Origin: Parvibaculaceae bacterium Mf 1.05b.01
Lineage (GTDB): Bacteria > Pseudomonadota > Alphaproteobacteria > Parvibaculales > Parvibaculaceae
Assembly (NCBI GenBank): GCA_000509225.1
Contig: BAOK01000001.1
Span: 1,888,245 to 1,952,244 of the forward strand
Length of the DNA stretch: 64,000 nt
Direction of reading: 5' to 3'
A program made the position numbers and the translations under genes. The notes under the pieces were generated by a model that was not told the DNA's origin, did no database searches, and saw only the letters and a program-made list of their open reading frames with translations. The first letter of the stretch is position 1; every line of letters begins with the position of its first letter. Below, piece by piece: positions 26,052 through 46,983 of this stretch.

Positions 26052-26124
26052 CTGGCTCTCCCTTGGGTACAACGCTGTCGGACCATTATGCCAAAATGGT
26101 TCACCGCTGATTTCGGTGTTGTTT

Positions 26125-28333: not shown

Positions 28334-28363
28334 TGGATAACCTCTCTTATCGCTCAACTCTCC

Positions 28364-29008: not shown

Positions 29009-29048
29009 GGGAGTTCCTCAATCTTCAAAATTTCTTTTGTCTAAGCTC

Positions 29049-29079
29049 AATCTACTACCTATAGTAACTATAGATTCAA
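29049..29079 (-). promoter_or_regulatory. MerR-family promoter/operator for the CDF-oxidase operon
   Basis: Read leftward: -35 TTGAAT (29079-29074), 19-bp spacer, -10 TAGATT (29054-29049). The perfect palindrome CTATAGT-A-ACTATAG (29059-29073) fills the spacer. It closely resembles the mer operator at 10352-10370 in the central TAGTAACTA. Confidence 0.85.
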
Positions 29080-29096
29080 GCACAAAAGAGGTCGGC

Positions 29097-29510
29097 ATGT
29101 CAGAATTCACAATTGGTCAGTTGGCAAAAGAGACCGGCTGCAAAGTGCCGACAATCCGGTACTTTGAGAAGATTGGTATGCTTCCCGAACCGGCACGATC
29201 GGCTGGTAACACGCGGATCTACACTGCAGCCGCAATGGCTCGCCTTACATTCATCTGTCATTGCAGAGAACTCGGCTTCCCACAAAAAGTCGTCCGTGAA
29301 CTACTTGGGCTGGTCGATCATCCAGATCAGTCTTGCGAAACTGTCACCAAAATCGCGGCGACACAATTGGACCACGTTAATCAACGTATAAGCCATCTAG
29401 CAGCGTTGAAAGTTGAGCTGGAACGTATGATTAGCAGTTGCAACGGTGGCCGTGTTGCTCAATGCCGAATTGTTGAATCTTTGGCTGACGGCACCCACGC
29501 ACCGAGTTAA
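29097..29510 (+). CDS. MerR-family Zn/Cd/Pb-type regulator
   Basis: This 137-residue regulator has the winged helix (VPTIRYFEKIGMLPEPARS) and Cys80, Cys115 and Cys123, the ZntR/CadR/PbrR arrangement for divalent soft metals. An extra Cys15 in the recognition helix (ETGCKVPTI) recalls PbrR. The ATG at 29097 lies 24 nt after the operator; the frame upstream overlaps the divergent CDF gene. It is followed 22 nt later by lspA, as in lead-resistance loci where a signal peptidase II gene belongs to the cluster. Confidence 0.85.
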   Translation: MSEFTIGQLAKETGCKVPTIRYFEKIGMLPEPARSAGNTRIYTAAAMARLTFICHCRELGFPQKVVRELLGLVDHPDQSCETVTKIAATQLDHVNQRISHLAALKVELERMISSCNGGRVAQCRIVESLADGTHAPS

Positions 29511-29532
29511 AGAAGAGTTTGCGGCACAGACA

Positions 29533-30063
29533 ATGGAAAGTTGCTCTCATGCGTCTCGAAACCCACGACCTCCCCTACCGGCAAGAGGAACGAAAGCAGT
29601 GTTTACAAGACTAGGATTGCAGATTGCCTTGATTGTCTTTATTGCCGATCTCGCAACAAAATGGCTTGCGATCAACTTGTTATCGGAACCACCAAGAGTG
29701 CTTGAAGCACTTCCATTCTTCAATCTGGTTCTAGGCTTTAACCGCGGAATTAGCTTCGGTCTATTGAATTCCGCGAGCCCTGCAGCGCCCTATCTTTTGT
29801 CATTGTTCGCACTTGTCGTCATAGGTTTTTTAGTGGTTTGGTTACGGCGAGCCGACCATACATTCGAAGCAGTCGGCCTCGGAGCGATCATCGGAGGGGC
29901 AAGCGCGAATGTTGCCGACCGTCTCGCCGACGGCGCCGTGACGGATTTTCTCGACGTTCACATTTCTTCGTATCATTGGCCGACTTTCAACCTTGCCGAC
30001 ACCGCGATAGTCTGCGGTGTCATCCTTTTCATCATCTACACCCGCCGCGACAGAGCACTTTGA
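29533..30063 (+). CDS. lspA: Signal peptidase II, accessory copy
   Basis: This 176-residue membrane aspartyl protease cleaves lipoprotein signal peptides. It has four membrane helices and the catalytic Asp residues in GASANVADRLADGAVTDFLD and FNLADTAI. The start at 29533 lies 22 nt after the MerR-type gene; a longer frame would overlap it. LspA copies in metal islands are known from lead resistance (PbrC). Here it may process lipoproteins of the efflux systems or be a passenger; the chromosome must carry the housekeeping copy elsewhere. Confidence 0.88.
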   Translation: MESCSHASRNPRPPLPARGTKAVFTRLGLQIALIVFIADLATKWLAINLLSEPPRVLEALPFFNLVLGFNRGISFGLLNSASPAAPYLLSLFALVVIGFLVVWLRRADHTFEAVGLGAIIGGASANVADRLADGAVTDFLDVHISSYHWPTFNLADTAIVCGVILFIIYTRRDRAL

Positions 30064-30179
30064 TTTCACCTTTTACAAGTAAAGTTACGGTGCTCAATGG
30101 TGTCGATCCAGCTGCATTCAGAGACCCGAGGCGTCCCATGCAGATTGCGTGATGAGAGCATCCCGCAGTCCGGCCTCAT

Positions 30180-31568
30180 CTAATCAGGCTCTCCCATCGA
30201 AGCCAGGATTTCCGAAAGAAGCCTGGCGCTCGATTGATCAGCACCATCAAGCTCAATAGCCTTGCGGCCGTATGGAAGCGCTTCTGCAGCGTGGCCGCTC
30301 GAGAACAGACTCTCGGCAATTCTACGGTGGTAGGTTGCATTCGAGGGTTGCAACGTTACCGCTTGCTCAAAATCGGACCTCGCAAGTTGAAGACCACCTA
30401 ACTGGAGCGTAGCCATGCCGCGCCCCATAAACGCCTCAACAAAGTCTGGATCAAGACCGATCGCTTCATCGTAGTCCGCTACTGCGAGGGTAACTTGACC
30501 ATCCTGAAGGTATGCATTCGCACGATTGTTGTAAGCAACCACATAGGTGGGGTTTAGTTTGATCGCCTGAGTGTAATCGTTGATAGCCAACTGCAACTTG
30601 CCCAGCTCTCGGTGCGCGCGCCCCCTATTGTTGAATGCAAACGCAAAGGTCGGACTAATTTCAATTGCCCGAGAAAAATCTTCTAATGCCAGCGTAAGTT
30701 TTCCGAGTTCGCGGTACACATTCCCACGATTGTTCAGTGCAAATGCAGAGTTTGGATTGATTTTTAGGGCTTCTTCGTAATCGGAGATTGCCTTCTCCTG
30801 TCGGCCCAACTCACGATGGGCATTGCCCCTATTAAGATATGGAAGTTCATAGTTTGATCGGAGGTCGATAGCCTTGGTGTAATCCGTAATCGCGAGATCG
30901 AGATCTCCTTGCTCCTGATAGGCGTTTCCGCGACCGTTAAACGCAAAGGCATACTCAGGGTCCAGACGGATCGCCTCGGAATAGTCAGAAATAGCGTCCT
31001 CATATTGACCCAGTTCTCGCCTCACGTTCCCTCGTCCATTGTAGGAAAATGCTGAACCTGGATCCAGACGGATCGCTTCATCGTAGTCCGCGATGGCAAG
31101 ATCTGGCTTATTAAGTTCGCGATACACTGAGCCGCGGTTTGTGTACCCGCTAGCGATGTAGGGCTCCATCCGGATGGCCTCATCATAGTCGACAAGCGCC
31201 AAGTCCGGTTTACCCAGTTTCCGATAGGCGTTTCCTCGCGCGATAAATAGGACACCCGCCTTAGGTCCGATTTCAATTGCAGCAGTAAATGCTTCGGCAG
31301 CCTCTTCGTAGCGCCCTTGCTCCAAGCTGGCTTTGCCCCTCTCCCAATACTCAACCTGTTCTCTAAGGGTTCGTTCTGGAGGTTGTTGGGGATAACCACA
31401 CCCGACGCTCGCTTCAGCACCACATGGCCTTGATGCACCTCCAATGTCAGGCGCCTCACGGCCCTGCACTGTTGAGGCCAGTGCCAAGATCACGAAGGCC
31501 GGTAGCAAACCGAGTGTGATATTTGCAAATACACCAGAGTGCAATCTACGTCTCACAGTGTTCTTCAT
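30180..31568 (-). CDS. Tetratricopeptide-repeat periplasmic protein downstream of czcA
   Basis: This 462-residue protein has a signal peptide (residues about 10-35) and then about ten 34-residue TPR units. Their repeated core reads like FNNRGRAHRELGKLQLAIND and KINPNSAFALNNRGNVYRELG. Such arrays bind partner proteins. The ATG at 31568 overlaps the czcA stop, so it is translated with the pump, and a pump-assembly or scaffold role is likely but inferred. The repeats are so alike that they probably arose by tandem duplication. Confidence 0.85.
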   Translation of the reverse strand: MKNTVRRRLHSGVFANITLGLLPAFVILALASTVQGREAPDIGGASRPCGAEASVGCGYPQQPPERTLREQVEYWERGKASLEQGRYEEAAEAFTAAIEIGPKAGVLFIARGNAYRKLGKPDLALVDYDEAIRMEPYIASGYTNRGSVYRELNKPDLAIADYDEAIRLDPGSAFSYNGRGNVRRELGQYEDAISDYSEAIRLDPEYAFAFNGRGNAYQEQGDLDLAITDYTKAIDLRSNYELPYLNRGNAHRELGRQEKAISDYEEALKINPNSAFALNNRGNVYRELGKLTLALEDFSRAIEISPTFAFAFNNRGRAHRELGKLQLAINDYTQAIKLNPTYVVAYNNRANAYLQDGQVTLAVADYDEAIGLDPDFVEAFMGRGMATLQLGGLQLARSDFEQAVTLQPSNATYHRRIAESLFSSGHAAEALPYGRKAIELDGADQSSARLLSEILASMGEPD

Positions 31569-34500
31569 AGCGAAGCGCCTTGGATAAGCGGAGCACGAGC
31601 GCCCTGGTGCGTATGTTGCCATTCGGTCAATTTTGCCTGCGAAAATGTTCGGTAGAGCGTTGGCAAGATGAAAAGCGTCAATGCCGTTGAGGAGATCAGG
31701 CCACCAACCACAACTGTCGCCAATGGTCGCTGAACCTCTGACCCAACCCCGCTGGACAGCAGCATTGGGATAAGCCCAAGGGCCGCTATCGACGCCGTCA
31801 TCAGGACAGGTCGTAAGCGAGATACCGCACCGGAAAATACAGCCGCGTCCACCGCCTGCCCTCCCAGAACATTCTGATTGATCGCGCTGACCATGACGAC
31901 ACCATTTAGGACAGCAACGCCAAACAGTGCGATGAAGCCAATCGAACCTGGAACGGACAAATATTGCCCCGTCAAAAGAAGAGAGAATATCCCCCCGATA
32001 AGAGCCAAAGGTACGTTGACCATAATGAGTGCTGCTTGCCCAACGGACCCAAACGCAAAATAGAGCAACAGAAATATGAGGGCCAAGGACAGGGGCACAA
32101 CGATCATGAGGCGCGCTTGTGCCCTTGCCTGATTTTCAAATTGGCCCCCAAAGACCACGGTATATCCTGTCGGAAGGGCAACTTCCTGCGCAATTCGATC
32201 CCGCAACTCTGTGACCAGGCCGCCCATATCACGGCCTTCGACATTCGTCTGAATGACGATGCGTCGTTGTACGTCATCACGCCTAATCTGTGGAGGACCT
32301 GCCTCAATTTCGACACTTGCAACCTCATCGAGTCGAACCCAAGCGCCCCGAGGAGACTCAAGAATGAGGTCTCGGATCGCTTCTGGACTGGCGCGGAACT
32401 GATCGGCAAGACGAACATATATGTCATACCGCTCATTCCCTTGAATGACTTGGCCAGCTTCCCTGCCGCCAATAGCAGCCGACACAAGGTCCATCACCGC
32501 GTCAACTGACAACCCAAAACGCGCAAGCTTGTCCCGGTCGGGACGAACAACAAGCTGCGCCTCGCCTGCGATCTGCTCCATAGCAACATCACGTGTTCCT
32601 TGAGTATTACGCACCAAGGTTTCGATCTCTCGTCCCTTCTCGGCAAGAACATCGAGATCCGCGCCAAAAAGTTTGACTGCCAGTTGCGCTTTCACACCGG
32701 AAAGAAGCTCGTCAACACGCGTAGCAATCGGTTGCGAAAACGAAAACAGAAGCCCCGGATGAACTGCCAACTTCTCCTCCATCAACCGCTGCAGTTCAAA
32801 TCGATTTGTTGCCGACACCCATTCAGAGACCGGCTTTAATCCAACATAAATCTCGACGTTGGAAACAGGTTCCGGGTCGCCACCCAGTTCAGGCCGACCA
32901 ACTCTGCTTGACGCGTAAATGACCTCTGGAAATTCGAGGATCATTTTCTCAAGCTTTTCAGCGACACTTGTGGAAGTTTCGAGGCTCGACGACGGTGCAA
33001 GCGTCACCCTCAAGTTGATCGTGCCTTCTTCAAGCTCCGGCACAAATTCTGTCCCAAGGAAAGGAACAGCCAAAAGAGAAACGACGAGCAACACTACGGC
33101 ACCTGAGACGACTTTCTTCTGACTTTGTAGCGCGCCGTTGAGAGTCCCTTTATACCAATTTTCCAAAGGTCGAAGGATGGGGCTTTCACGATGCTTGACG
33201 CCGCCACGAAACATATAGGTCGACAGAGCAGGCACCACAATTAGAGCGACAAACAATGAGGCGAGCATCGCCAGAACAATGCTGACAGCCATCGGTTGGA
33301 ACAGTTTTCCTTCCACGCCTTCAAGTGAAAAAAGCGGCGCAAAAACAACGATAATAATGAGAACAGCATAGAAAACAGGACGCCCCATCTCACGAGCCGC
33401 TTCCTGTATTCTCAGTTGCAACCCATGGGGCTGATCTCCGACAGATGCCGCTGTCTCGTCGGCACCAGCATCATCAGCCGGTTTGGTCAAATGGCTAAAG
33501 ATGTTTTCCATCATCACCACCGAACCATCGACCATCATTCCAATTGCAATAGCCAGCCCACCCAAAGACATAAGATTGGCAGACACACCCCAGATCGACA
33601 TCGCCATGAGCGCGAGGCCGATGGAAATCGGGACTGAAATGAGCACCAGAACTGTCGCGCGGAGGTTCATTAAGAACAAAGCCAAAATCACAACGATCAA
33701 AAGGAACGCTTCGATAAGCGCGCGGCTAACCGTACTAACAGCCTGATCAACAAGATCAGCCTGATCGTATATAGGCTCCAGAACGACACCGTCTGGCAAT
33801 GCAAGCGCGACAGTTTCCAATCGATCTTTGATACTATCGATAGCAACTTTCGTATTCGCTCCAAGCCGCTTCAGCACAACACCTAGGACGACCTCACCCA
33901 ATTGTTGCGGTCTTCCATCCGCATCGCGAATTGTTAGTGTGGTTGCCCCCTGGCGGATCTCTCCACCCAAACTGACATCCGCCACATCGGCGATGCGCAC
34001 GACGAAGCCATCCTCTTCCTTCAGCGGAACATTTCCAATATCTCGTAGCCCGTCATCGCCGCTGCGAACCCAACCAACACCTCGAATGACAAGTTGTTCG
34101 GCGCCACGATCAAGATACCAGCCCCCAGAATTCCGATTGCTCGCTTCGATAGCCTCACGCACATCGTCAACTGCGAGGCCAAAGGAAAGAAGCTTCTGCG
34201 GATCAATATTCACTTGGTATTGCAGCACATCACCGCCAAACGAAAGAACGTCGGTGACACCGTCAACAGGCATCAGTAAAAGCTTCACAACCCAGTCGTT
34301 GAGGCTACGCAGTGTCTTGATATCAAACTTTCCTGGCTCTTCAGCACGCAACACGTATTGAAAGATCTGGCCCAGGCCTGAGGTGTTGGGACCCATTTCC
34401 GGGGTTCCAACACCGTCGGGAATTTGATCCATCGCCGCTTGCAATCTCTCGAAAACAAGCTGGCGCGCAAAGTAAATGTCCGTTCCCTCTTGAAACACGA

Positions 34501-34783
34501 CTGTAATAACTGAGAGGCCCGTTTTCGAAATCGAACGTACTTCCTGTACATCCGGTAACGCATACATCACTGCCTCGATTGGGTAGGTGATGAGCTGTTC
34601 AACCTCTTCAGAGGCTAAGCCGCGCGCTTCGGTGTTGATGGACACCTGTACATTGGTCACATCGGGAAACGCATCAAGGTTAAGGTTCGGAAGAACCAAA
34701 ACGCTACCAACGATTGCCGCTGCCAGGCTTAAGACCACCAGAAGCCGACCACGTATACCAAGATCAATTATGCTATTGAGCAT
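31565..34783 (-). CDS. czcA: CzcA-type divalent-cation RND pump
   Basis: This 1072-residue inner-membrane proton antiporter has the heavy-metal RND plan, with TM4 motif AIAIGMMVDGSVVMMEN. At the positions of the CusA methionine relay it has Leu-Arg (NLRV), Val-Ser-Asn (PVSNVE) and RVDELLSG, no methionines, so it should export divalent ions such as Zn, Co, Cd or Ni rather than Cu(I). It lies between czcB (9-nt gap) and the TPR gene (4-nt overlap). Confidence 0.9.
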   Translation of the reverse strand: MLNSIIDLGIRGRLLVVLSLAAAIVGSVLVLPNLNLDAFPDVTNVQVSINTEARGLASEEVEQLITYPIEAVMYALPDVQEVRSISKTGLSVITVVFQEGTDIYFARQLVFERLQAAMDQIPDGVGTPEMGPNTSGLGQIFQYVLRAEEPGKFDIKTLRSLNDWVVKLLLMPVDGVTDVLSFGGDVLQYQVNIDPQKLLSFGLAVDDVREAIEASNRNSGGWYLDRGAEQLVIRGVGWVRSGDDGLRDIGNVPLKEEDGFVVRIADVADVSLGGEIRQGATTLTIRDADGRPQQLGEVVLGVVLKRLGANTKVAIDSIKDRLETVALALPDGVVLEPIYDQADLVDQAVSTVSRALIEAFLLIVVILALFLMNLRATVLVLISVPISIGLALMAMSIWGVSANLMSLGGLAIAIGMMVDGSVVMMENIFSHLTKPADDAGADETAASVGDQPHGLQLRIQEAAREMGRPVFYAVLIIIVVFAPLFSLEGVEGKLFQPMAVSIVLAMLASLFVALIVVPALSTYMFRGGVKHRESPILRPLENWYKGTLNGALQSQKKVVSGAVVLLVVSLLAVPFLGTEFVPELEEGTINLRVTLAPSSSLETSTSVAEKLEKMILEFPEVIYASSRVGRPELGGDPEPVSNVEIYVGLKPVSEWVSATNRFELQRLMEEKLAVHPGLLFSFSQPIATRVDELLSGVKAQLAVKLFGADLDVLAEKGREIETLVRNTQGTRDVAMEQIAGEAQLVVRPDRDKLARFGLSVDAVMDLVSAAIGGREAGQVIQGNERYDIYVRLADQFRASPEAIRDLILESPRGAWVRLDEVASVEIEAGPPQIRRDDVQRRIVIQTNVEGRDMGGLVTELRDRIAQEVALPTGYTVVFGGQFENQARAQARLMIVVPLSLALIFLLLYFAFGSVGQAALIMVNVPLALIGGIFSLLLTGQYLSVPGSIGFIALFGVAVLNGVVMVSAINQNVLGGQAVDAAVFSGAVSRLRPVLMTASIAALGLIPMLLSSGVGSEVQRPLATVVVGGLISSTALTLFILPTLYRTFSQAKLTEWQHTHQGARAPLIQGASL

Positions 34784-34792
34784 TGTCGCCTC

Positions 34793-36016
34793 CTAATGGT
34801 TGTGAATGTCGAAGCCGCCCTTGGCGAGTTCAGATTGAAGGAAAAAAGAGCCAGAAACTGCGACGGAGGTTCCAGCTCGAATACCTTCGATGACAGTCCA
34901 TTCGCCGATGACGCGTTCACGGCTAACCTCCAATGGCTTCAAACCACCGTCATCATCTTGCTCGAAGATGATCCAATCACCATCAGGACTGCGCACGAGC
35001 GCGTCACTGGGTACTGCGAGCACTGGCTCACCATCTCCCCTTTCAATTTCTGCTTGAACGAATTGCCCCGGCCTCAGCTTTCGAGCCACATTTGAAGCAA
35101 GGATCCTCACATCCACTGTGCGCGTTTCTTCGTCTACTGTTGAACGAATTAGTTCAATTTCCGCTTCCTGAGTGCCGCCGTCGTACTGAACCCACGCGCG
35201 CCCGCCGATACGGACGGCACTTGCATCATCAATGTCGAGTCGCGCAATCACCCAGACGCTGTCGAGGTCAACAATTTCAAACAACAATTGCCCAGGTTCA
35301 ATGAGCTCCCCATCTCTGAAGTCGTCAGAAATGATTACGCCGCTCTGACCTGCCAAAAGGGTGAATTCACCATGGGCATGAGACTCCCGCTCTTTAGAGG
35401 AAGTGATCGCGTCGACTGCATCTTGTCCCAGCCCATAGGATAGAAGTTGAGCTTCAGCTTGTTGACGCGCCACCTGCGCTTCAAGGTACCGCCTTTCCGA
35501 TACCACTTCGCGACCGAGCCGTCGCACGCGACGCCACTCCCGATCAGCAACCAGCAGGTCCCCCTCTGCATCCGCAACGTCACGGCTAAACAGGGTGACG
35601 AGAGGGTCTCCAGTCTCAACTGTTTCACTCAAGCGCTTGTGGCGCTTAACAACAATCGCCGCCATGCGTGGCGTTACAATGCTGGAATTGTAGGCGTTTG
35701 ATTTGATCTCCGCCGGAACAGTAATGCTATCGCCCAGAACAACCGGCGCCAAAACTTCAATGCGAACGCCAGCGGTACTGAGATTTTCCGCAGTAAGGAC
35801 GAGCTCTTGCTCGTCTTCATCTTCTCCAGCGTGCGCATCCAGGTTCGCAGCTTGGCCGTCCGCGTGGTCAGACTCGTCGGCATGATCTGCCTCATCGCTA
35901 TGAGCATGAGAGTCTGCTCTGCCAGATTCTGTATATTCGCCACCAATCAGGGAATAGACCCCGAGAGATGCAATCAGGACGAGGCCTGCCAAAGCAGCCA
36001 TCAACTTCTGGGTCAT
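34793..36016 (-). CDS. czcB: CzcB-type periplasmic adaptor with His/Asp-rich N-terminus
   Basis: This 407-residue membrane-fusion protein has an N-terminal anchor and then a striking His/Asp/Glu-rich segment (residues about 33-70: HAHSDEADHADESDHADG and DEDEQE) before the adaptor domains. The segment should bind divalent metal and fits the predicted substrate class of the partner pump. The start overlaps the czcC stop (ATGA). Confidence 0.88.
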   Translation of the reverse strand: MTQKLMAALAGLVLIASLGVYSLIGGEYTESGRADSHAHSDEADHADESDHADGQAANLDAHAGEDEDEQELVLTAENLSTAGVRIEVLAPVVLGDSITVPAEIKSNAYNSSIVTPRMAAIVVKRHKRLSETVETGDPLVTLFSRDVADAEGDLLVADREWRRVRRLGREVVSERRYLEAQVARQQAEAQLLSYGLGQDAVDAITSSKERESHAHGEFTLLAGQSGVIISDDFRDGELIEPGQLLFEIVDLDSVWVIARLDIDDASAVRIGGRAWVQYDGGTQEAEIELIRSTVDEETRTVDVRILASNVARKLRPGQFVQAEIERGDGEPVLAVPSDALVRSPDGDWIIFEQDDDGGLKPLEVSRERVIGEWTVIEGIRAGTSVAVSGSFFLQSELAKGGFDIHNH

Positions 36017-37248
36017 TGTTCTGTTCCAATCCAATTTTCGACATAACCAGCTGCTTCCAACAATTGAAACCACGCGGTCCACGCTTGGCCATGTAGTTCA
36101 ATGGAAGATGTTTGCGCGTCATAAATCTGCTGTAGCTGGACAAGGTATTCGACAGCACCAATGTCACCGCCTCGTAAGCGTCTCTCGAGCAAGTCGGTCT
36201 GTTGAGCGAGCGCATCCTCACCGTCCTTCTGCCAAAGGCTCTGGCTGGTTCGCAGCGCTTCATATCGACGAACCGTTTCCCGCAGGCGGGCCGTTGCAGA
36301 GCGCTGCGCGCTTTGCAGCTCTGCGGCAGCAGAGACAGCCTCCGCGCGAGAGGCCGCAACCTCCGAACGACCCGAATTCAGAACAGGAATCGGAATTGAT
36401 ACACTGAAGCCAAAAAGATCTGAGTCACCCTCATCACCCCAACGCACGCCAAATGAGGGGTCGGGAACGCGCTCCCATCGCGCAACATTCACATCCTGCT
36501 CGGCCGCTTCACGGACGTGTCGCGCTGCCAAAACAGAAGGCAGACGGTCAATGTCGACGTCGTCAACGTTCAATGGCTCTGGCAGCACATTGCCAAACCG
36601 AGGCCAGGTTATGGGGGAGAAACCTGTCAGCTCTGCCAGTTCCTGTTCTGCGCTCGACACCTCAGTTACAGCAACTTGCTCCTCCATAGCTGCCTGTGCC
36701 GCAGCCAACCGGGCTGCTTGAACTTCAGACGGCGAAATATCGCCTTCCCTTAAGAGTCTTTCAGATAGTTCCGCAAATCGGGACATAGATTGTGTTCGCT
36801 TTGACGCAAGCTCCAGCGCCTCTCTCTGCTGATCGACCAAAACAAATCCGGAAAGAACTTCAGCTATCACCTGTTGCCGAATACTCGCGAGCTCCAGGGC
36901 AAAACCTTCCGCCCTGCTATCTGCGGCTCGACCTCGAGCGGCTGGCTTCGAAAGCCATTCAACGGTCTGGGAGACACCAACCGTCTCAGTACGGACGTCA
37001 GTATTTTCTCTCTCATATTCTATTTCCGGGTTGTAGCGCCAGAGACCTGCGCCTTCAGCTCGGGCTTGCGCTGCTCTCAAACGCGCCTGCGCCGAAGCAA
37101 TCGTCGGGTTCTCATTTATTATACTAGAGACGATTGCAGAGAGCCCGGCCGGCGTTGCCGCTTCGACCTCAGAAGGAGCAGCTACGGCAATAGCTGGTCC
37201 GAAAGCGAGAACGGCGCACAGCCATCCTGTCGTAATCAAACGAAACAT
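36013..37248 (-). CDS. czcC: CzcC-type outer-membrane efflux protein
   Basis: This 411-residue TolC-family protein has a signal peptide (cleavage near AVAA) and two outer-membrane-efflux repeats of long helices (NPTIASAQARLRAAQARAEG, and LRETVRRYEALRTSQ). It is the exit channel of the czc operon and the first of czcC-B-A-TPR. The preceding 84 nt contain two small inverted repeats, CTTGCC/GGCAAG and GTCCCT/AGGGAC (37306-37319), of unknown role. Confidence 0.86.
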   Translation of the reverse strand: MFRLITTGWLCAVLAFGPAIAVAAPSEVEAATPAGLSAIVSSIINENPTIASAQARLRAAQARAEGAGLWRYNPEIEYERENTDVRTETVGVSQTVEWLSKPAARGRAADSRAEGFALELASIRQQVIAEVLSGFVLVDQQREALELASKRTQSMSRFAELSERLLREGDISPSEVQAARLAAAQAAMEEQVAVTEVSSAEQELAELTGFSPITWPRFGNVLPEPLNVDDVDIDRLPSVLAARHVREAAEQDVNVARWERVPDPSFGVRWGDEGDSDLFGFSVSIPIPVLNSGRSEVAASRAEAVSAAAELQSAQRSATARLRETVRRYEALRTSQSLWQKDGEDALAQQTDLLERRLRGGDIGAVEYLVQLQQIYDAQTSSIELHGQAWTAWFQLLEAAGYVENWIGTEQ

Positions 37249-37332
37249 AAAATATCCTCACAAACATGTAGATGCTTGCCTCATGCACGCTGGCAAGAGG
37301 GTCGTGTCCCTAAAGGGACCTATGCGAGAGGA

Positions 37333-37647
37333 TTAACGGCGTGGGGGTTTTTCGGCCCGAGCGACATACTGCAGACGCGGAAGAGTGACTGCAATATAGT
37401 GCGTCGATGTTTGTTCAGTCGTCCGAGACACCGTTACAGCTTCAGTGCGCAAAGGCATGGGGACACAATGAGCACAATGCTCCGCACCACGGTCTGGAGC
37501 AGGCAGGTCTTTGCCGCCGTTTTCATGATCTGTGAGTTGTGTCGAGATAGACTTGTCTATGATCTGAACATGATCTTCGTCCGCAAACGCACTTACCGGA
37601 ACGATAAACAAGGCAAGCATCACGGATATAATCAACATCTGTCTCAT
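37333..37647 (-). CDS. Small secreted protein before czcCBA
   Basis: This 104-residue protein starts at the Met of MRQMLIISVMLALF. A signal peptide (cleavage near AFA-DE) is followed by a polar stretch with HCAHCVPM and a tail ending EKPPRR. It matches the plan of the small secreted proteins at 2133 and 16797, each in front of a metal-efflux operon. The HCxxC cluster could bind metal. No named family is certain. Confidence 0.62.
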   Translation of the reverse strand: MRQMLIISVMLALFIVPVSAFADEDHVQIIDKSISTQLTDHENGGKDLPAPDRGAEHCAHCVPMPLRTEAVTVSRTTEQTSTHYIAVTLPRLQYVARAEKPPRR

Positions 37648-37850
37648 GCATTGCACAATAGGGCTGAACCCACTGCAGTCAATACCCAAACCGTCCGGTC
37701 TCAGCACCAACAGAACAGAGAAATGCTACTGAAATCATCAAAAAGCAGGCTTCGTGCGTCACATCGCCCTATCTAGTATTCGCGGAAATTGATGGAGGCG
37801 TTGTGGCTAGGGGCAAGCCTTTTCTTCAATTATTGCCAAATCACCAGCGT

Positions 37851-38695
37851 TCACCGAGCCTCGTGGTAGCGATGATTGTTGTAATGGCCAACGAACGCAG
37901 CGATGTGGCCTTCAAGATCGCCTGGAAGGAAGTAGCTCTCCAACAAGATGCGGTTCTTGAGTGTCTGATGCCAGCGTTCAATCTTGCCCTGGGTTTGCGG
38001 ATGATAGGGGGCACCGCGTGTGTGCGTCATGCCCTTGTCTTCCAGATAATCGGCCAGCTCCCTCGACATATAGCAGGGGCCATTGTCAGAGAGCAGCCGT
38101 GGTCGATGTACGACATGAGCCTGATCAAGCACTGTCGCCTCCAGAGCCAGGTTCAGCGTATCCTGAACGTCGGAAGCGGCCATGCCCGTGCAAAGCTTCC
38201 AAGCGATGATATAGCGGGAGTAATCATCCAGGATAGTCGACAAGTAGAACCAGCCCCAGCCGATCACCTTCAGATACATGAAGTCAGTCTGCCAGAGCTG
38301 ATGTACCGCAGTCGTTTTTTCCCGGAACTCATTGGCAGCCTTCATCACAATGAAGGCGGGGCTCGTGATCAGGTCATGTGCTTTCAACAGCCTGTAAACA
38401 CTCGCCTCAGAGACGAAGTAAATTGCGCTCATCTGTGAACGGCACAGCCAACTCACTCGGGCTCAGCGTTGGGCGTTCTAGAGCCATCTCCAGCATATCG
38501 GCCCGTACTTTGGTTCCAAAATCGGCCAGGATGCAATCTGCGGTCTTCCAGACCCGTCTCCCCGAACCGGCGATACAGGTCGTACCATCGGTAGAAGGTC
38601 GGGCGCGTTACGCCCAACATCTCCAATGTACGTTTGACAGGCGAATGGGCCCCTTCGACGAGGCGTATGATCTCCACTTTCTCAGATGCGGAGCA
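37851..38695 (-). pseudogene. IS3-family transposase OrfB, multiply frameshifted
   Basis: The N-terminal part in one frame reads VEIIRLVEGAHSPVKRTL ... FYRWYDLYRRFG. A second frame continues DMLEMALERPTLSPSELAV. A third gives FVSEASVYRLLKAHD and the DDE integrase core with WQTDFMYLK, LLSDNGPCY and HPQTQGKIERWHQTL, so all three catalytic acids are kept. The C-terminus breaks off after NNHRYHEA. The product is inactive as sequenced. Confidence 0.88.
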
Positions 38696-39049
38696 TCATG
38701 CTTTTTTGAGAAGACGGTTCTCAAGCATCGTCTCGGCGAGCGCTTCCTTCAGATCACGCGCCTCACGGCGCAGACCTTGTACTTCGCCGGTGTTGGCCTC
38801 ACGTTCTGTATCCCCAGCCAGGCACTTCTTGCAAGCTTCCATGAACTCCTTTGACCAGGAGTAGTACTGGCTCTGAGCAATGCCCTCCTGACGACAAAGC
38901 TCAGCTATGCTGTCTTCGCCGCGCAGCCCTGAGAGCACAATGCGGATCTTATCTTGTGCCGTATAGCACCTGCACGTTTGGCGGCGAATGTCTTTGATGG
39001 CTCTCTCTACACCCTCTTGGTGCCGCTCAGTTGTCTGTCTCATCATCAT
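38696..39049 (-). CDS. IS3-family transposase OrfA
   Basis: This 117-residue protein has a helix-turn-helix of the transposase_8 type (KIRIVLSGLRGEDSIAELCR, IAQSQYYSWSKEF) and a leucine-zipper coiled coil ending ENRLLKKA. A run of six A then G (38707-38701), a classic slippery site, lies just before its stop. However, the orfB remnant lies in the same frame as orfA here, so normal -1 frameshifting would not reach it. Confidence 0.88.
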   Translation of the reverse strand: MMMRQTTERHQEGVERAIKDIRRQTCRCYTAQDKIRIVLSGLRGEDSIAELCRQEGIAQSQYYSWSKEFMEACKKCLAGDTEREANTGEVQGLRREARDLKEALAETMLENRLLKKA

Positions 39050-39084
39050 CTCCAGAACAGTAATGATGAGCCAAAATCCCTCCC

Positions 39085-39251
39085 TTACGCAATTACGCTA
39101 ATCTGTCCCATAGGTGCTGACGTCGCACATGATTCAAATAGCTCTGTGTCAATTCGAATTGGTGTACCGCTAACAATCAATGGTTTTTTCGTAACTAGCC
39201 ATTCCGGCAAATCAAGCAGGCGTTTCCAATAGAAGCATTTGGAGAAGTCGT
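39085..39251 (-). other. Open frame without a start beside the IS3 remnant
   Basis: Leftward, the frame ending at 39085 reads plausible protein (SVDDFSKCFYWKRLLDLPEW, then KPLIVSGTPIRIDTELF) but has no start codon and runs back into the end of the DUF6998-like gene in another frame. It may be the 3' remnant of a gene or a frameshifted tail of its neighbour. Nothing else is seen in this gap. Confidence 0.3.
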
Positions 39252-39719
39252 CTACCGAGCGACACGCTGGAGGCGATCCTTTTCCTCAACTTTTCTGTTT
39301 GTGGCCTCAATTTGTTTGCGCGAGACCATGCGCTGACCGCTCCAACTATCAGGCATTGTCTGAAGCGCAATTTCCTCTGGTCCATTGAAGATGACGCTTC
39401 CTTGGAGACTATCAAAGTCCAAATCAAAAAAGAGCAGATGATCTGCTCGAGTATCCACCTGCCGAAAAATAGGACCTCGACCGGTACCGGTTGCTTTTAC
39501 CTGGACAGTGCGCTTGTCTGGCGCATAACCATCTATTCCAACCTTGCCGGTGTGTGCGAGTTCAATACCAAAGAGGTCGACGGCCAACGCCTCGCCTATG
39601 TCTCCGATTAGCTTGCCATCGAAAGTAAAGCTTAAGCGGGTGTTTCGATAATAATCCCGAAGCTTGTTACGAGCAACAACAAGGTCTGCAACAAATTCAG
39701 GCAGTATGAACTGCATCAT
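39252..39719 (-). CDS. DUF6998-like, possible PD-(D/E)xK-type nuclease-related protein
   Basis: This 155-residue protein contains LIGDIGEALAVDLFGIEL, then IDGYAPDKRTVQVKATGTG, resembling DUF6998. The Asp and the Gln-Val-Lys pattern recall restriction-endonuclease-like folds (Glu-x-Lys replaced by Gln-x-Lys), so catalysis is uncertain. I chose the ATG at 39719 with a well-spaced GGAG; the frame is open to a GTG at 39872, and that extension has no recognised similarity. It is divergent from the BRCT gene and sits in the defence region. Confidence 0.6.
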   Translation of the reverse strand: MMQFILPEFVADLVVARNKLRDYYRNTRLSFTFDGKLIGDIGEALAVDLFGIELAHTGKVGIDGYAPDKRTVQVKATGTGRGPIFRQVDTRADHLLFFDLDFDSLQGSVIFNGPEEIALQTMPDSWSGQRMVSRKQIEATNRKVEEKDRLQRVAR

Positions 39720-39930
39720 TTTGACTCCAAAAAGCTCGTTGTCTTGGGTAGCAGGTACGAACATTAGTCCCGCACAAACAGGGGGAGGTATTTTGCAGAA
39801 CCATTCAGCCCAGGCCGTTGTGAGCAACGGATGCTTGATCCGCTGTTCAACCAAGCTTCGAAATTTGATCACTCATTTCGCATCTCTCGACAACTCCCAT
39901 CACAGGATCTTTGACATTAAGAGAAAACGA

Positions 39931-39947
39931 TTGTTTCATTGAAACAA
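39931..39947. promoter_or_regulatory. Perfect 17-bp palindrome between divergent defence-region genes
   Basis: TTGTTTCA-T-TGAAACAA is a perfect inverted repeat 33 nt before the preferred start of the BRCT gene and 212 nt from the divergent gene. It has the look of a repressor operator. No regulator gene adjoins it. Confidence 0.6.
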
Positions 39948-39979
39948 TGGCGCAAGAATTTATCTCTATCGAGGATCCC

Positions 39980-40918
39980 ATGAAACTATCAGAGCAAGCA
40001 ACGCGGGACATTTCTCAACGGGAGATCGATGAGCAGCACAATGCATTCAACAAGTCGGCGAACGACAAAAAGCGAGTCGTCTATTGGATTGGGTTCTTGG
40101 AAGGAGCGTTAGCGTCAGACCGTATTGAGCTCGGTGAAAATGATGCATTACATGCGGAAGCGACGAAATTTGCTGAATTCTTTGGCGACCCTGACGCGTC
40201 TGATCTAGCAGAAGACATTGACGCACGGTGTTTCTCCTCAGATTCCGACATGATGGATCAACTCAAGCAAATTGTCCTCGAGAAACGCGCGCAGATCTCC
40301 ACAAAGTCGCCGTATACAGAAACAGATGAAATGAATGAGTTTCTGGGTTTCTGCGCGGGGGTCATCTGCGACGGACGCATATTGGCATCTGAAGCAAGTG
40401 CCATTCTGCACCGTTTTCAGAAGTCAGATTTGCTGATGAATGCATCTCCGTTCCAAGATGTGCGTCGTGTAGTAGAAGCATCGTTGGCGGACAACGAACT
40501 AACGGCCTCAGAATCTGAAGAAATTCAAGAGTGGATTTCTCGGCTCGTTGGCGACGGCTTTATAGACACCGGCCTTCCAAACATTGGAACTGTTGCTCAG
40601 CTCGACGAACCGATAACGGATCCAAATATGGTATCTCTCTCTGGTTCTACCTTCGTGCTAACAGGCCCCATGAAAATTGGCACACGCGCGTTCATCGTAG
40701 CCGAGATCGAGCGATTTGGTGCCGTGTTTCAAGAACGCACAACCAGAGAAACTGCCTATGTAGTGGTCTCATCAACAGCATCCAAACATTGGCGAACAAC
40801 TCATTTTGGTAGAAAAATAGAACGTGCACAGCAATTACTCAGCCAAGGATACGATCTCCAGTTTGTCTCAGAAGATGCACTCCAGGGCGCCATAAGGCTT
40901 GCTGACGGTCGGTCCTAG
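39980..40918 (+). CDS. TerB-like helical plus C-terminal BRCT domain protein
   Basis: This 312-residue soluble protein has an N-terminal helical part with TerB-like spacing (IGFLEGALASDRIELGE, FCAGVICDGRILASEA, VEASLADNELTASESEE). It ends in a BRCT domain (residues about 215-305: SGSTFVLTGPM and THFGRKIERAQQLL). BRCT domains bind DNA ends, NAD-ligase-type partners or phosphoproteins. I chose the ATG at 39980 because GAGGA precedes it and a palindrome lies just upstream; in-frame ATGs at 39911 and 39947 are alternatives. It converges on the Hhe-like gene with 21 nt between stops. A link to defence is inferred from position. Confidence 0.75.
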   Translation: MKLSEQATRDISQREIDEQHNAFNKSANDKKRVVYWIGFLEGALASDRIELGENDALHAEATKFAEFFGDPDASDLAEDIDARCFSSDSDMMDQLKQIVLEKRAQISTKSPYTETDEMNEFLGFCAGVICDGRILASEASAILHRFQKSDLLMNASPFQDVRRVVEASLADNELTASESEEIQEWISRLVGDGFIDTGLPNIGTVAQLDEPITDPNMVSLSGSTFVLTGPMKIGTRAFIVAEIERFGAVFQERTTRETAYVVVSSTASKHWRTTHFGRKIERAQQLLSQGYDLQFVSEDALQGAIRLADGRS

Positions 40919-40939
40919 GACAGCTCCGTTCAGGCGGAA

Positions 40940-43900
40940 CTAGTCATTGGTAGGCGCAAGGTCGTCTGAGTTTCGCCTAAACCCATCTGTTAGTGAAACC
41001 AATAAACCAATTTTGCACAATGATTCTAGCTCACGATCAACAATGATCCGAAACTCAGCGCTTGTTGACTTAAATCCGATCATTCGTGCTACCGCTGTTG
41101 CCACCTCTTGCTCAGACAGAGAAATATTCTCATCAATTGCCTTCAAAATAGCCTGCCTGATCTCTGTCGGTGGCAAGTTGTCCACTCGGCGTAGTGTAGA
41201 AGCTGATACATGTTTGCGGTTCCGTATTGGTACATCAGATACGTTTTTCCCAATGACAAAATCCGTACTTTGTGCTTCCGCATGATTGATATCCCCGTTC
41301 ACCAAGCACGATATGACAACTTCTTTGACTCTGGCTTGAATTCGTTGTCCTGCCCGTTGATATCCCCACAGACGGCTTAACCTTCGGCCAATTTCTTCAA
41401 TATGAATTGGGCCTTCAATCTCTACAATTTTTTGAATGCACTGTCTGATTATAGATCTAGGTGCTTCATGCAGTTCATAATCTTGGCGTTGGGAGATCGT
41501 GAATCTCGCCTCCGCATAGCGAGTTGCCTGCACAGATTCCAATGCCAGAGAACGTTCCACAACAGGCATCAATTGCGGCATTGCACCTAATTTCGTTGGA
41601 TTTCTTGCCGAATCTATCGCGATGAGAAGTTTGTCGAGTTCAGCATCGGGTTTGCGGAACCAATCAGTGCTCCATATCCGATGGAATACCCAACCTTTTG
41701 ACTCCAAAACTTGTTGTCGCAACCTGTCGCGCTCTCTCGCCCACCGTGAAGAATGGTAGGTGGCTCCGTCACATTCTACGGCAAGTAAAAACCTGCCGTC
41801 ATTGTCTGGGTCGTACACGGCTAAATCAATTAGGAACCCTGCTGAACCAACCTGCGCCTCAACTGCATAGCCGGACCTACGAATTGCGGATGCAACGGCC
41901 TCCTCAAACGGGCTATCCATTTCACCCCCCGTCAGCCTTGGCAGATCGATCTCACCGGTTTCAGCATATTTGAGATACCTTTTGAAGACCTTCGGTCCTA
42001 TGTTTTTGGATACATCGTCACGGATATCTTGATGAGATAACGACGAAAATATCTGACAACTAAGTTTTGCACGGGTGAAAAGAACGTTGAGACGGCGCTC
42101 CCCTCCTCCAGAGGAGACTGGTCCGAAGCTCTGTGACATATATCCGTCAGCGTCGCGCCCATAGCAAACAGAGATAAAAATTGTATCTCGCTCATCACCT
42201 TGGACATTCTCAAGGTTCTTCACGAAAAACTGCGTCGAACTCCCTTCGGAGAAAAATACCTCCAACTCTGGATTCTCTGCGCGAAGGAACTCCAACTCGT
42301 TTTGTATTGCATCTCTCTGTGAAACAGAGAACGTCACAACGCCGAGCGATAGATGTGCACGTTCTCTAGCATGCTGCAGAACAGCCTTTGCAACGGCTTT
42401 TGCTTCAATCAAGTTGGCGCGAGACCCACCTCTGTCATACACACCATCCACATGTTGGTATGTTAGGCCAGCTGCAGACCCTGCGAGTTCTGGGCTAGGT
42501 GGAAAAACCAGCCTATTTTCATAGAAAGTCTGATTGGACACCGCAATCAACGAAGGATGCTTGGATCTGTAGTGCCATCTCAGCGTTTCACCTGGAATGG
42601 ACCTTGCTGCGCAAAGCGTCAGGACACTCTCCATGTCCCCAACCTGTGCCGCCTGCGGCGTCTCCTCTTCGGCCTCACTATCCTGATCAACTCCTTCAGT
42701 CATGCGGCTAAAAAAGGAGGTAGGTGGAAGTTGGTGCCGGTCGCCGACGACAACAATTTGTTTGGATCTCAGTATTGCTCCCAAAGCATCCTCTGGACGT
42801 ATCTGGCTTGCCTCATCCATTACCAAAAGGTCGAAAGACACTCCTCCAGGGCGCAAATATTGCGCTACAGATAACGGGCTCATCAAAAATACCGGTTTGA
42901 TCTTGGAGATGGCTTCACCCGCTGAATCCATCAGCTTCCTCAGCGCCATATGCCTCCGCTTCTTGCCTATCTCACCCTTCAAAATTCCCATTTGCCCAGC
43001 ACCACCTCGAGGCAATGAGCGATAGTGAGAAAGCGAAATTTCTTGTGCCGCTAAAGCCTTCAAGGCTGAGTCTATCTTTCCGAAACGTTCAACAAGTTCA
43101 GTTCTCTCATCGCCGTCGACATTGTCGAGCTCAGGATTCTTCTCGCATAGATCACCCCAGACAGCTTCGGCACAGGCAAACTCAAACTGGTCCAAAGCTT
43201 CCGACGGCGGAAACCCACCTGTAGCCAATCCATCCCTAATAGGGTCTAAGGAATGATGTGATAATTGTGCTGCAGCTGCATGAAGACCGTTCCAATCCTC
43301 TAGTCGCTCGATTTCCAGAGTCCAGTGGCGCAATCGGACCTCGAGCTCATCCAAACTTACGTCTTCGATATCCTCACTCTGAAATCCAATCTGACTTGAG
43401 TAGTCAAGCGCTGCAGAGATCTCGTGCCAACAAATTTTCCACTGACGCTGTTGTTCTTTCAGTCGTCCCGTGACCTCTGCAACGTCAGCACCCTCCCGCA
43501 TAGATGCCACGCGCTCCGCCACGACATCAATACTGTTCAGTCGTAGTGCCTCCTCCGACAACCAACTCATAGCCGGTGAAAGACTAGCGAAGTCAGTCTT
43601 GCGCCCCGCCCACAAGGCGCCGAACGCTTGTTGTCCAAAAGCGTCGTGTTCTTTCAGTTCATTCTCTGTCCGATTCAGATCAACGAGGGAATTGACAAGA
43701 TCTTTGCGCTTTGCGAACTCAGAAGGAGTTGGACCAATGCACACCGCGTTCAATCGTGCAGCGGCCTCGCGGTAGGCACGGTTGAAGATCCGAAACAATC
43801 TACCGCCATGAGCAAGAATGACCTGAGCATCAGATACCCAGTCAGCGTCCAAACCAATCTCTGTGATCCTGTCCGCCAGCGCTTCCCGTTGACCCATTCC

Positions 43901-45703
43901 CTTTTTTACGAGGTCGAGCAGATCGCGAGCGCGCTGAAACTGAGTTTTTAGCACGTCAGATTCCAAGAGCGGTTTGACGTATTTCGGCATGGACCCCAGG
44001 GCATCTAGCTGTTCAGTCATCTCTTTGACCGCCGAAGTCGTGAGACGTTTTTGAAATTCAAAAACTGTACAGACTTCAGCACAGGTCTGCCTAAGAGCCT
44101 GAATTGAAGCCAACGCGTCATGGAGTTGAGGCTCTAGCCTAGTCCGCTCCATGGGAGTCAAGCGTCTTTCGACACCGCGCCATGGATGATCAAACTCAGA
44201 TCCAAATTTGTCAGTGAGCTCCGCCGCAAGCTTTACAGCATTTCGTTTTGCATCAGCTTCATCAGGTACCCAATTAGGTGCTTCAGACAGCCGAAAGTTT
44301 GGCGGAAGAACCCCCTTTTCCCTTAGTTGAACCAGAAGGCCAATTGTACGATAGGCAGTTTGTCCATTTACTGGATCCGGTTCATGCAGAATCTGCGAAA
44401 GAGCATTCAATCTATCTCGAGTGCGTTCGACAAGTTGGTACTCTGACTGCTCCACGGCCTTTGGAGCACCGAGCTTCAAGGTCCGGTCCAATTCCTCGAG
44501 CACCAGACGTTTATTTGCCATTCTAGAATGTAATTCAAGACAAACAGGTCCGAGATGACACTCCTCCAATCGTTGCTGGACAACATCCAGCGCTGCCATT
44601 TTTTCCGCAACGAATAGGACCCGTTTGCCGTCTTGAACAGCTGTGGCAATAATGTTTGCAATCGTCTGCGATTTCCCTGTGCCAGGCGGCCCCTGCACAA
44701 CAAGGTTACGACCATTACGGACTGTTTCTATCACCTGCGCTTGAGAAGCATCGGCATCCATTACATGGCCGAGTTTCTTAAGGTCGACAAACCGCTCATC
44801 CAAATTCTCGTTCGACTCAATAAGAGGTGACTGCTCTTCAAATCCATCAACCAACAGCTTCTGAATCAGATCGTTACCGTCAAATCCGGTTCCAGCAGGC
44901 CATTTATCTGGGTCCAAGTCTCTCCACATTAAAAATTTGGCGAATGAATAAAACCCGAGAAGTATAGTATCGCGCTCAATTTGCCATCGCGGTTGGTCTT
45001 TGATGCACTCCTCTACAAAATTGAAATAGTCAGAAGGAAGCCACCCCTCCGCTTCTGGGAGGTCCGGAAGGCTAATTTGAAAATCATTATTCAAAAGTGC
45101 CTGAAGCGAAATATTCGGCGCCAAGTCTTGTTCTCTGAAAGATAAGCGAAATTTTCCGCGAACACTGTCTCTCGACAACTCGACCGGTAGAAGTATCAGC
45201 GGCGCAAACCGTTCAATGTCCGACTTCTCGTTCTCAAACCACTTTAGAAATCCAATACCAAGGTAAAGAACGTTAACACCTTGCTCATCTTCGATGGACT
45301 TAGCGTCGAGATGAATCGAGAGAAGTTTCTTTTGGAGCGTTTCACGAGTTAGCAAGGTCTGAAGCTTCAGATCCACATGGCGAACCGCAACACCCCCAAC
45401 ATCCTCGTCATCTTCTGGCGGAATATAAATACCCTGAGCAGCGGCGGCGTCCTCTGCATTGTTGGTACCAACATCGTCCGGCACACCCAGAAACGACATA
45501 TTCTTTTTTTCAAGTGCCAGAATTTTGAATATCTCATCAGACAACTCATCAACAACCAAGATTTGCTTAGATCTTCGGTTGCCAACCGGCGTATGGATCA
45601 AACGGTTACGTTTTCCAATGTCCAAAAGCTGCTGGCGCACATACTGGATCGCTGCCTTCATCGAAGATGGCAACTCACTTTTCTTCAGGTCGTCGCCCGT
45701 CAT
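40940..45703 (-). CDS. Hhe-like antiviral protein: DUF4011-SF1 helicase-nuclease-DUF3320
   Basis: This 1587-residue protein begins with a DUF4011-type segment (LLDIGKRNRLIH). It then has a superfamily 1 helicase: Walker A QGPPGTGKSQTIANI near residue 335, VMDEASQIRPEDA near 960, GDRHQLPPTSFF, WHYRSKHPSL, VQGDERDTIF, and RLNVLFTRAK near 1208. A Vsr/MTES_1575-type nuclease follows (SPFEEAVASAIRRSG, then LAVECDGATYH near 1307), with a DUF3320-type end (HIEEIGRRLSRLWGYQ near 1430). This order matches Hhe, a single-gene phage-defence system. I chose the ATG at 45703 with GGGGGA upstream; ATGs at 45721 and 45751 are possible. All helicase and nuclease motifs look intact. Confidence 0.88.
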   Translation of the reverse strand: MTGDDLKKSELPSSMKAAIQYVRQQLLDIGKRNRLIHTPVGNRRSKQILVVDELSDEIFKILALEKKNMSFLGVPDDVGTNNAEDAAAAQGIYIPPEDDEDVGGVAVRHVDLKLQTLLTRETLQKKLLSIHLDAKSIEDEQGVNVLYLGIGFLKWFENEKSDIERFAPLILLPVELSRDSVRGKFRLSFREQDLAPNISLQALLNNDFQISLPDLPEAEGWLPSDYFNFVEECIKDQPRWQIERDTILLGFYSFAKFLMWRDLDPDKWPAGTGFDGNDLIQKLLVDGFEEQSPLIESNENLDERFVDLKKLGHVMDADASQAQVIETVRNGRNLVVQGPPGTGKSQTIANIIATAVQDGKRVLFVAEKMAALDVVQQRLEECHLGPVCLELHSRMANKRLVLEELDRTLKLGAPKAVEQSEYQLVERTRDRLNALSQILHEPDPVNGQTAYRTIGLLVQLREKGVLPPNFRLSEAPNWVPDEADAKRNAVKLAAELTDKFGSEFDHPWRGVERRLTPMERTRLEPQLHDALASIQALRQTCAEVCTVFEFQKRLTTSAVKEMTEQLDALGSMPKYVKPLLESDVLKTQFQRARDLLDLVKKGMGQREALADRITEIGLDADWVSDAQVILAHGGRLFRIFNRAYREAAARLNAVCIGPTPSEFAKRKDLVNSLVDLNRTENELKEHDAFGQQAFGALWAGRKTDFASLSPAMSWLSEEALRLNSIDVVAERVASMREGADVAEVTGRLKEQQRQWKICWHEISAALDYSSQIGFQSEDIEDVSLDELEVRLRHWTLEIERLEDWNGLHAAAAQLSHHSLDPIRDGLATGGFPPSEALDQFEFACAEAVWGDLCEKNPELDNVDGDERTELVERFGKIDSALKALAAQEISLSHYRSLPRGGAGQMGILKGEIGKKRRHMALRKLMDSAGEAISKIKPVFLMSPLSVAQYLRPGGVSFDLLVMDEASQIRPEDALGAILRSKQIVVVGDRHQLPPTSFFSRMTEGVDQDSEAEEETPQAAQVGDMESVLTLCAARSIPGETLRWHYRSKHPSLIAVSNQTFYENRLVFPPSPELAGSAAGLTYQHVDGVYDRGGSRANLIEAKAVAKAVLQHARERAHLSLGVVTFSVSQRDAIQNELEFLRAENPELEVFFSEGSSTQFFVKNLENVQGDERDTIFISVCYGRDADGYMSQSFGPVSSGGGERRLNVLFTRAKLSCQIFSSLSHQDIRDDVSKNIGPKVFKRYLKYAETGEIDLPRLTGGEMDSPFEEAVASAIRRSGYAVEAQVGSAGFLIDLAVYDPDNDGRFLLAVECDGATYHSSRWARERDRLRQQVLESKGWVFHRIWSTDWFRKPDAELDKLLIAIDSARNPTKLGAMPQLMPVVERSLALESVQATRYAEARFTISQRQDYELHEAPRSIIRQCIQKIVEIEGPIHIEEIGRRLSRLWGYQRAGQRIQARVKEVVISCLVNGDINHAEAQSTDFVIGKNVSDVPIRNRKHVSASTLRRVDNLPPTEIRQAILKAIDENISLSEQEVATAVARMIGFKSTSAEFRIIVDRELESLCKIGLLVSLTDGFRRNSDDLAPTND

Positions 45704-46090
45704 TTTCCCCCACGTTCGCATAATTGGAATTCGCCAAAACAGCGAACACAAATGCGGCCCAGCTAGAGACCTGCATTTGCATTAAACACCCATTTCAGAC
45801 AAAAACAAAAAATTCAGGGGGAGAAGGTGTCAGATCAAAGCGCCTATACACTTCATGTGGCGTAACTAAAGCGGTGGGGGAGCCAAGCAGTTTGCGGCGG
45901 GCTGCAGTTGATCAAGTACCAGGCAGAAGTGCCAAACACATACACATTCGCAGCGAAGGAGGAACTCAGACTTCCGACACGCGGATTATGTTTCCGCTTA
46001 AGTCCCACATGTTGTTTGGCGTCGGCTTATCCCTTCCTAACCTGACTTCCATCTTCCCTTCTGTCTGAAATCCCTCTATCACTGCAGGCA
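45704..46090. other. Intergenic region upstream of the Hhe-like gene
   Basis: About 390 nt without a convincing gene. It must hold the promoter of the leftward Hhe-like gene. Short open frames on both strands lack ribosome-binding sites and family similarity. Confidence 0.5.
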
Positions 46091-46253
46091 GAGCCGTAAC
46101 GCGCGGCTCCGGGGTGTCGTAACCCCTTCTATAGTGGTTTGGTGTCAACCGAAATGACGCCAACTCCTTGACCTTTGCGGTCGGGGAGCCTGCGGCGTAT
46201 GTCCAGGCTCTCCGGAGCTAAAGGCCGTAGGAACCGCCTATAGACGGTTTACG
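46091..46253 (+). ncRNA. Run of five hairpins, candidate structured RNA or leader
   Basis: Five stems follow each other in 163 nt. H1 is 46091-46096/46104-46109. H2 is 46111-46115/46122-46126 (GGGGT/ACCCC). H3 is 46136-46139/46147-46150. H4 is a 10-bp stem 46183-46192/46204-46213 with one G.U. H5 is 46226-46229 plus 46232-46236 pairing with 46245-46249 plus 46250-46253 around a GG bulge. No T-run follows them, so they are not ordinary terminators. They precede the membrane-protein gene at 46333 by 80 nt and could be its leader, a small RNA or a folded recombination site. I match no known RNA family. Confidence 0.4.
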
Positions 46254-46332
46254 AACTCCCCGATCACCAGGATCAAGATGCCAGCTTGCGGTGGGCGCGC
46301 CGCAGGTCAGGGCTACAAGGGAGTGACATTGA

Positions 46333-46716
46333 ATGCACAATTCCAAACCCATCAATATCGTCATCGTCGCCATCTGCCTCTTCGTATTTGGACTGTTATC
46401 TATCCCGATTGGCGTTATCGCTCTTGCTTTCGTCCCCCTCGCATCTGAAGCAAGCAAGGAGCTAGCCAATGCCTATCTGATACTCATCTTCGGCATCGCT
46501 GATTTGGTCGCCGCCTATGGTCTATGGACACGGCAGCAATGGGCAAGAAGCTTCACTCTATTGGTTCTCGCGCTTTCAATCCTTCTGACACCACTATTTG
46601 TTGAAGATGACACAAGCAAATTGGAGATTGATGCACTGATTGTTGGATGCGTCCTAAACGCTGCCATGATGCTTCTGATATGGAACAAGAAGGTCGGTGA
46701 CTGGCTGCGGACTTGA
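46333..46716 (+). CDS. Small four-helix membrane protein of unknown function
   Basis: This 127-residue protein has four hydrophobic segments (residues about 8-35, 45-65, 70-92, 98-118) with short polar loops and a basic C-terminus (NKKVGDWLRT). No family is recognised. It follows the hairpin run and is the last gene before the tRNA. Small membrane proteins are common effectors in defence islands, but that role here is speculation. Confidence 0.65.
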   Translation: MHNSKPINIVIVAICLFVFGLLSIPIGVIALAFVPLASEASKELANAYLILIFGIADLVAAYGLWTRQQWARSFTLLVLALSILLTPLFVEDDTSKLEIDALIVGCVLNAAMMLLIWNKKVGDWLRT

Positions 46717-46839
46717 AGAGGGTGGAGCCAACTCATATCGCTACTTGAGACGACCGGACCGCATTCGTGTTACACTGACACGCAAAGCCAATTGTGCTGT
46801 CCTAACGCCGACATACACCAACAATAATGCAGGTCCAAG

Positions 46840-46860
46840 TGGTAGCTATATGGTAGCTAT
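46840..46860. repeat. Two 10-bp direct repeats with 11-bp period near the tRNA 3' end
   Basis: TGGTAGCTAT occurs at 46840-46849 and 46851-46860, one helical turn apart, 46 nt from the tRNA 3' end. Short direct repeats at this spacing next to a tRNA can be arm-type binding sites of a tyrosine recombinase. No integrase gene is present in the window. Confidence 0.5.
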
Positions 46861-46906
46861 CTAGAACTGCACTCCGCCGCCAAAAGTCATAAACTGTTGA
46901 AATGAT

Positions 46907-46983
46907 TGGTACAGCTGGGAGGAATTGAACCACCGACCTCTTGATCCACAATCAAGCGCTCTAACCGACTGAGCTACAGCTGC
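46907..46983 (-). tRNA. tRNA-His (GTG), A73 type without G-1
   Basis: The leftward gene folds as a standard cloverleaf with D-arm GCTC/GAGC, anticodon stem CTTGA/TCAAG and loop TTGTGGA (anticodon GTG), and an encoded CCA (46909-46907). Unlike most bacterial tRNA-His, the base before position 1 is U, not G (46984 is A on the plus strand). Base pair 1-72 is G.U and the discriminator is A73 (46910). These are the features of the divergent histidine tRNA found in a large alphaproteobacterial group, recognised by its own HisRS. Its 3' end faces the defence region, the usual side for island insertion. Confidence 0.95.

Follow-up and report, generated by a model that had tools for sequence, protein, structure and literature searches.

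The DNA analysed here, called the window below, is a stretch of 64,000 nucleotides from the alphaproteobacterium Parvibaculaceae bacterium Mf 1.05b.01. It carries a large helicase-nuclease gene close to a tRNA-His gene and to the end of a genomic island (Table 1). Open-frame inspection showed this gene to be a single unbroken reading frame. The maximal frame extends from 40940 to 45751 on the minus strand, and the start codon is most likely the ATG at 45703, preceded by GGGGGAAA. Compared with a homologue of 64% identity, differences are more frequent at third codon positions (0.63) than at first and second positions (0.30 and 0.21), and thus the reading frame is maintained. The G+C content of the gene is 49%, versus 57% in the right-hand flank. 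A preliminary description of the locus placed the gene between an IS3 remnant and tRNA-His; both do flank it, although the DUF6998 and BRCT-domain genes and a small membrane-protein ORF intervene. The IS3 copy has a broken second frame, with the integrase-core part (37851-38456) out of frame with the upstream helix-turn-helix part (38453-38677). The BRCT-domain gene is convergent with the helicase-nuclease gene, the two ends lying 21 bp apart.

Table 1. Features of the helicase-nuclease locus and of the island end, in window positions
Feature	Position	Strand	Remarks
Right-hand two thirds of genomic island	1..46906	.	Remainder, including the integrase, lies left of the window
IS3-family remnant	37851-39049		orfA 38696-39049
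DUF6998 gene	39252-39872	-	Between IS3 remnant and helicase-nuclease gene
BRCT-domain gene	39911-40918	+	Between IS3 remnant and helicase-nuclease gene
PDC-S37-type DUF4011 / SF1 helicase / MTES_1575 nuclease / DUF3320 protein gene	40940..45703	-	1,587 aa
DUF3320	41336..41476	-	aa 1410-1456; Pfam PF11784, E 6.4e-15
MTES_1575 Vsr-like nuclease domain	41618..41908	-	aa 1266-1362; Pfam PF18741, E 7.6e-36
Helicase motifs II to VI	42044..42829	-	aa 959-1220; DEAS, GDRHQLPPT, NVQGDERD, RRLNVLFTRAK
Mostly helical insertion between helicase motifs Ia and II	43004..44443	-	aa 421-900
Helicase domain 1A, AAA_11	44531..44752	-	aa 318-391; Walker A GPPGTGKSQT at aa 338-347
DUF4011	45092..45631	-	aa 25-204; Pfam PF13195, E 1.2e-36
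Small membrane-protein ORF	46333-46716	+	Between helicase-nuclease gene and tRNA-His
Right attachment repeat	46907..46956	.	50 bp of the 3' part of tRNA-His
tRNA-His (GTG)	46907..46983	-	Integration site

A Pfam profile search of the encoded protein gave five domain matches, all exceeding the curated cut-offs, and bore out the order of DUF4011, helicase, Vsr-type nuclease and DUF3320 proposed earlier; the fifth match, AAA_12, covers aa 1035-1220. The SF1 helicase is split, an insertion of about 480 aa separating motifs Ia and II, and alignment located every one of motifs I, Ia, II, III, IV, V and VI. The nuclease residues are E1267, D1293, E1310-x-D1312, H1317 and R1323/R1325. The key residues of both helicase and nuclease are invariant or nearly so across up to 28 aligned proteins, which upholds the earlier statement that all motifs are intact. 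The insertion is poorly conserved, with 13 of its 480 columns invariant; in the motor and the nuclease the figure is about one column in three. A HEPN effector within the insertion was considered and ruled out, the family alignment showing no conserved HEPN-type R-x4-6-H pair there.

By sequence and predicted fold, the nearest relatives of the helicase are SMUBP2, Upf1, Sen1/Senataxin, Aquarius and Dna2. With motifs I to VI present, and with Upf1, SMUBP2 and Dna2 as the nearest solved relatives, the helicase is of the SF1B, Upf1-like type. Structure models reached moderate confidence (pTM 0.45-0.51) and give no view of how the nuclease meets the motor. A fold search with the DUF4011 model, which covered mainly the helicase 1A part, gave no match at E<=0.001.

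The helicase-nuclease gene lies beside the attachment site of a tRNA-integrated genomic island, of which it is the last large gene. The 50-bp repeat within tRNA-His has an exact left copy at G000:C2:1864311-1864360, 70,840 bp leftward and 24 kb outside the window. The island thus delimited measures 70.84 kb (G000:C2:1864311-1935200, that is, window 1-46906 plus about 24 kb leftward). A tyrosine integrase of 401 aa, with Phage_integrase and Arm-DNA-bind_3 domains, begins some 150 bp inward of the left repeat; next comes a small helix-turn-helix protein similar in size to excision regulators. An empty site occurs in a congener (G001), where both flanks are contiguous across a single copy of the repeat, and two further genomes (G002 and G003) have tRNA-His without the island. 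Direct repeats, an integrase near one end and an empty site in a relative identify the element as a tRNA-integrated island. Its other recognised cargo is mostly for heavy-metal resistance, including two AcrB/CzcA-type pumps, a multicopper oxidase and a P-type ATPase carrying YHS and heavy-metal-binding domains. A search of the genome with a single relaxase family, PF03432, gave no match, and a PADLOC scan of proteins from part of the island showed no other clear defence gene.

The helicase-nuclease gene is accessory. It was found in one of six other genomes of the genus, and full-length copies occur in 3 of the 37 genomes searched of the family, the window's own included. In the genome with the 64% homologue (G005), that gene lies on a different contig from tRNA-His, and the two acquisitions therefore look independent. 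Relatives were also detected in Acidobacteriota, Bacillota and Bacteroidota and on plasmids, while phage records yielded one partial relative (65% covered), in an unannotated faecal phage record. Since tRNA genes were found near relatives at only 2 of 13 loci, tRNA linkage is not a trait of the family.

The genes surrounding the helicase-nuclease gene in the window do not recur next to its relatives, suggesting that one gene suffices and that the window protein probably acts alone. The BRCT-domain and DUF6998 genes were rejected as partners on the same grounds, being absent from the relatives' loci. The BRCT-domain gene was found in none of the six congeners searched and is rare on plasmids (two partial matches); its weak match to PDC-S48 was discarded as non-specific, because a protein of a control stretch matches PDC-S48 too. 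A model of type II methyl-directed restriction enzymes matches the DUF6998 protein very weakly (E 0.004).

In a survey of 143 proteins around 14 relatives with PADLOC models, strong defence matches were found beside some relatives (AbiEi 4e-89, type I REase 2e-156, PDC-S18 1e-141), together with weaker ones to DarT and type IV restriction. In control stretches from nine of the same contigs the best PADLOC match was 4e-28; at E<=1e-10 these stretches also matched PADLOC models, mostly of a housekeeping-like kind. The contrast is suggestive rather than statistical, the comparison being small, between sets of different size and tallied by family instead of by protein.

The defence-gene search placed the window protein in an accessory, defence-type family, as had been anticipated, with PDC-S37, a single-gene phage-defence candidate of PADLOC-DB, as the best model (1,739.5 bits). 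The match runs from end to end, aa 14-1570 aligning with positions 5-1540 of a profile of 1,550. A tree of 28 proteins, built from the columns of helicase and nuclease, puts the window protein in a PDC-S37 group of 18 rows (support 98/99), apart from annotated Hhe and ProA. Its nearest neighbour there, with 83% over the tree columns, is a Rhodobiaceae protein (L017) from the same locus as in G005, followed by Acidobacteriota proteins. The domain order is that of PDC-S37, the size is like that of most relatives (1,544-1,696 aa), and no feature compared sets the window protein apart from the family. A Hymenobacter member of the group is long (1,945 aa), and length alone therefore does not define the group. 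Judged from these sequence comparisons, the protein belongs to PDC-S37, related to Hhe but distinct from it. A literature search for PDC-S37, ProA and DUF4011 found no functional study of the PDC-S37 family.

The preliminary description had matched the protein to Hhe, an identity that is now very improbable. Hhe (NF042953; PADLOC PDLC02194) has the same order of DUF4011, SF1_Upf1-type helicase and MTES_1575 nuclease, and the PADLOC Hhe model is the second best for the window protein, but it scores 714.9 bits, and its profile of about 1,900 positions is matched in pieces. On the NCBIfam model the protein reaches 1,003.8 bits in three stretches, half of the cut-off of 2,000. An Hhe annotated on a Klebsiella plasmid served as a yardstick; it has 1,893 aa and scores 2,444 bits from end to end on PADLOC Hhe. 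The window protein is about 300 aa shorter than this Hhe, mainly before and within the helicase, and has a DUF3320 match, which the Klebsiella protein lacks at E 0.01; the separate tree branch points the same way. A short ProA that lost, or never had, its N-terminal extension and works in the same manner is also improbable, if less strikingly so. ProA (NF058533), named as an anti-phage protein, shares DUF4011, helicase, MTES_1575 and DUF3320 in colinear order, and the score of 1,385.7 bits is near the cut-off of 1,500, with a colinear match over profile positions 352-1902. However, the first 351 positions, corresponding to an N-terminal extension of about 350 aa, are unmatched, ORF inspection at the window locus found no upstream frame of that size, and the long ProA-type proteins (1,937-1,975 aa) branch together outside the PDC-S37 group.

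The location of the gene raises the different possibility that it serves the island more than phage defence, by helping to maintain it, by excluding related elements or by processing DNA as the island integrates and excises. The position beside the attachment site, other recognised cargo devoted mostly to metal resistance rather than defence, and a Dna2-like helicase-nuclease make-up suited to DNA processing would all fit such a role. It is nevertheless unlikely, given that relatives reside on plasmids and chromosomes in other surroundings, with differing neighbours, and that the sister families bear the names of anti-phage proteins. The reading preferred here, with a probability of about 0.7, is that the gene is island cargo, located at one end of the element integrated in tRNA-His, and that its PDC-S37 product is a nucleic-acid defence system of one gene.

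As a defence protein of this kind, the SF1B (Upf1/Dna2-like) motor would most probably load on free-ended or single-stranded invading DNA and translocate along it, the invader being phage replication intermediates or the DNA of an incoming plasmid or island. The tracked DNA would then be cut by the fused Vsr-like nuclease that follows the motor. Recognition of the substrate, or restraint of the nuclease until it is found, would fall to DUF4011, the helical insertion and the C-terminal part of winged-helix type (DUF3320). The anatomy of the protein, and the NCBIfam anti-phage names of the sister families Hhe and ProA, are most simply read in terms of a motor that tracks foreign DNA joined to a nuclease that cuts it. 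DNA as the substrate, coupling of motor and nuclease, and phage defence as the purpose are all presumed here, and anti-phage action in particular would follow from kinship. A more speculative and rather doubtful extension is that PDC-S37 differs in function from both Hhe and ProA as a third branch, its shorter helicase insertion and missing N-terminus conferring a different trigger or substrate, and that the metal-resistance island uses the gene against rival DNA.

Proteins of the MTES_1575 type were described as combining a Vsr-type REase with an SF1 helicase and with winged helices that overlap DUF3320, and as also carrying HEPN and transglutaminase domains (Biol Direct 2013, PMC3710099). 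The window protein shares the REase, the helicase and the DUF3320 region, and no HEPN or transglutaminase domain was matched in it by Pfam. Hachiman (HamAB), which has an SF2 helicase and a nuclease in two proteins, is an analogue rather than a family relative; it is alike in outline, coupling a helicase to a nuclease effector (PMC12278908).

Taken from its sequence, the intact window gene is a good candidate for a defence gene, if an ordinary one, and a well-defined new member of a candidate family. What is new is the placement of a PDC-S37 gene on a 70.84-kb island with mapped attachment repeats, integrase and empty site. A likely mis-filing as Hhe is also corrected. Precise ends, a relative with an empty site, a single gene and clear catalytic residues make the locus a convenient test case for PDC-S37.

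Two minor observations concern the surroundings. In the window, the ORF at 10077-10808 matches the 60-position PADLOC mad1 profile partially, through aa 113-159 (E 1e-13), and may be a mis-called frame. Near the tRNA-His of G003, a stretch of about 1 kb (locus L069, G003:C1:346000-362000, positions 3845-4876) is homologous to G000:C2:1859668-1860696 and lies out of order relative to the remainder of the left flank, a hint of rearrangement at this site.
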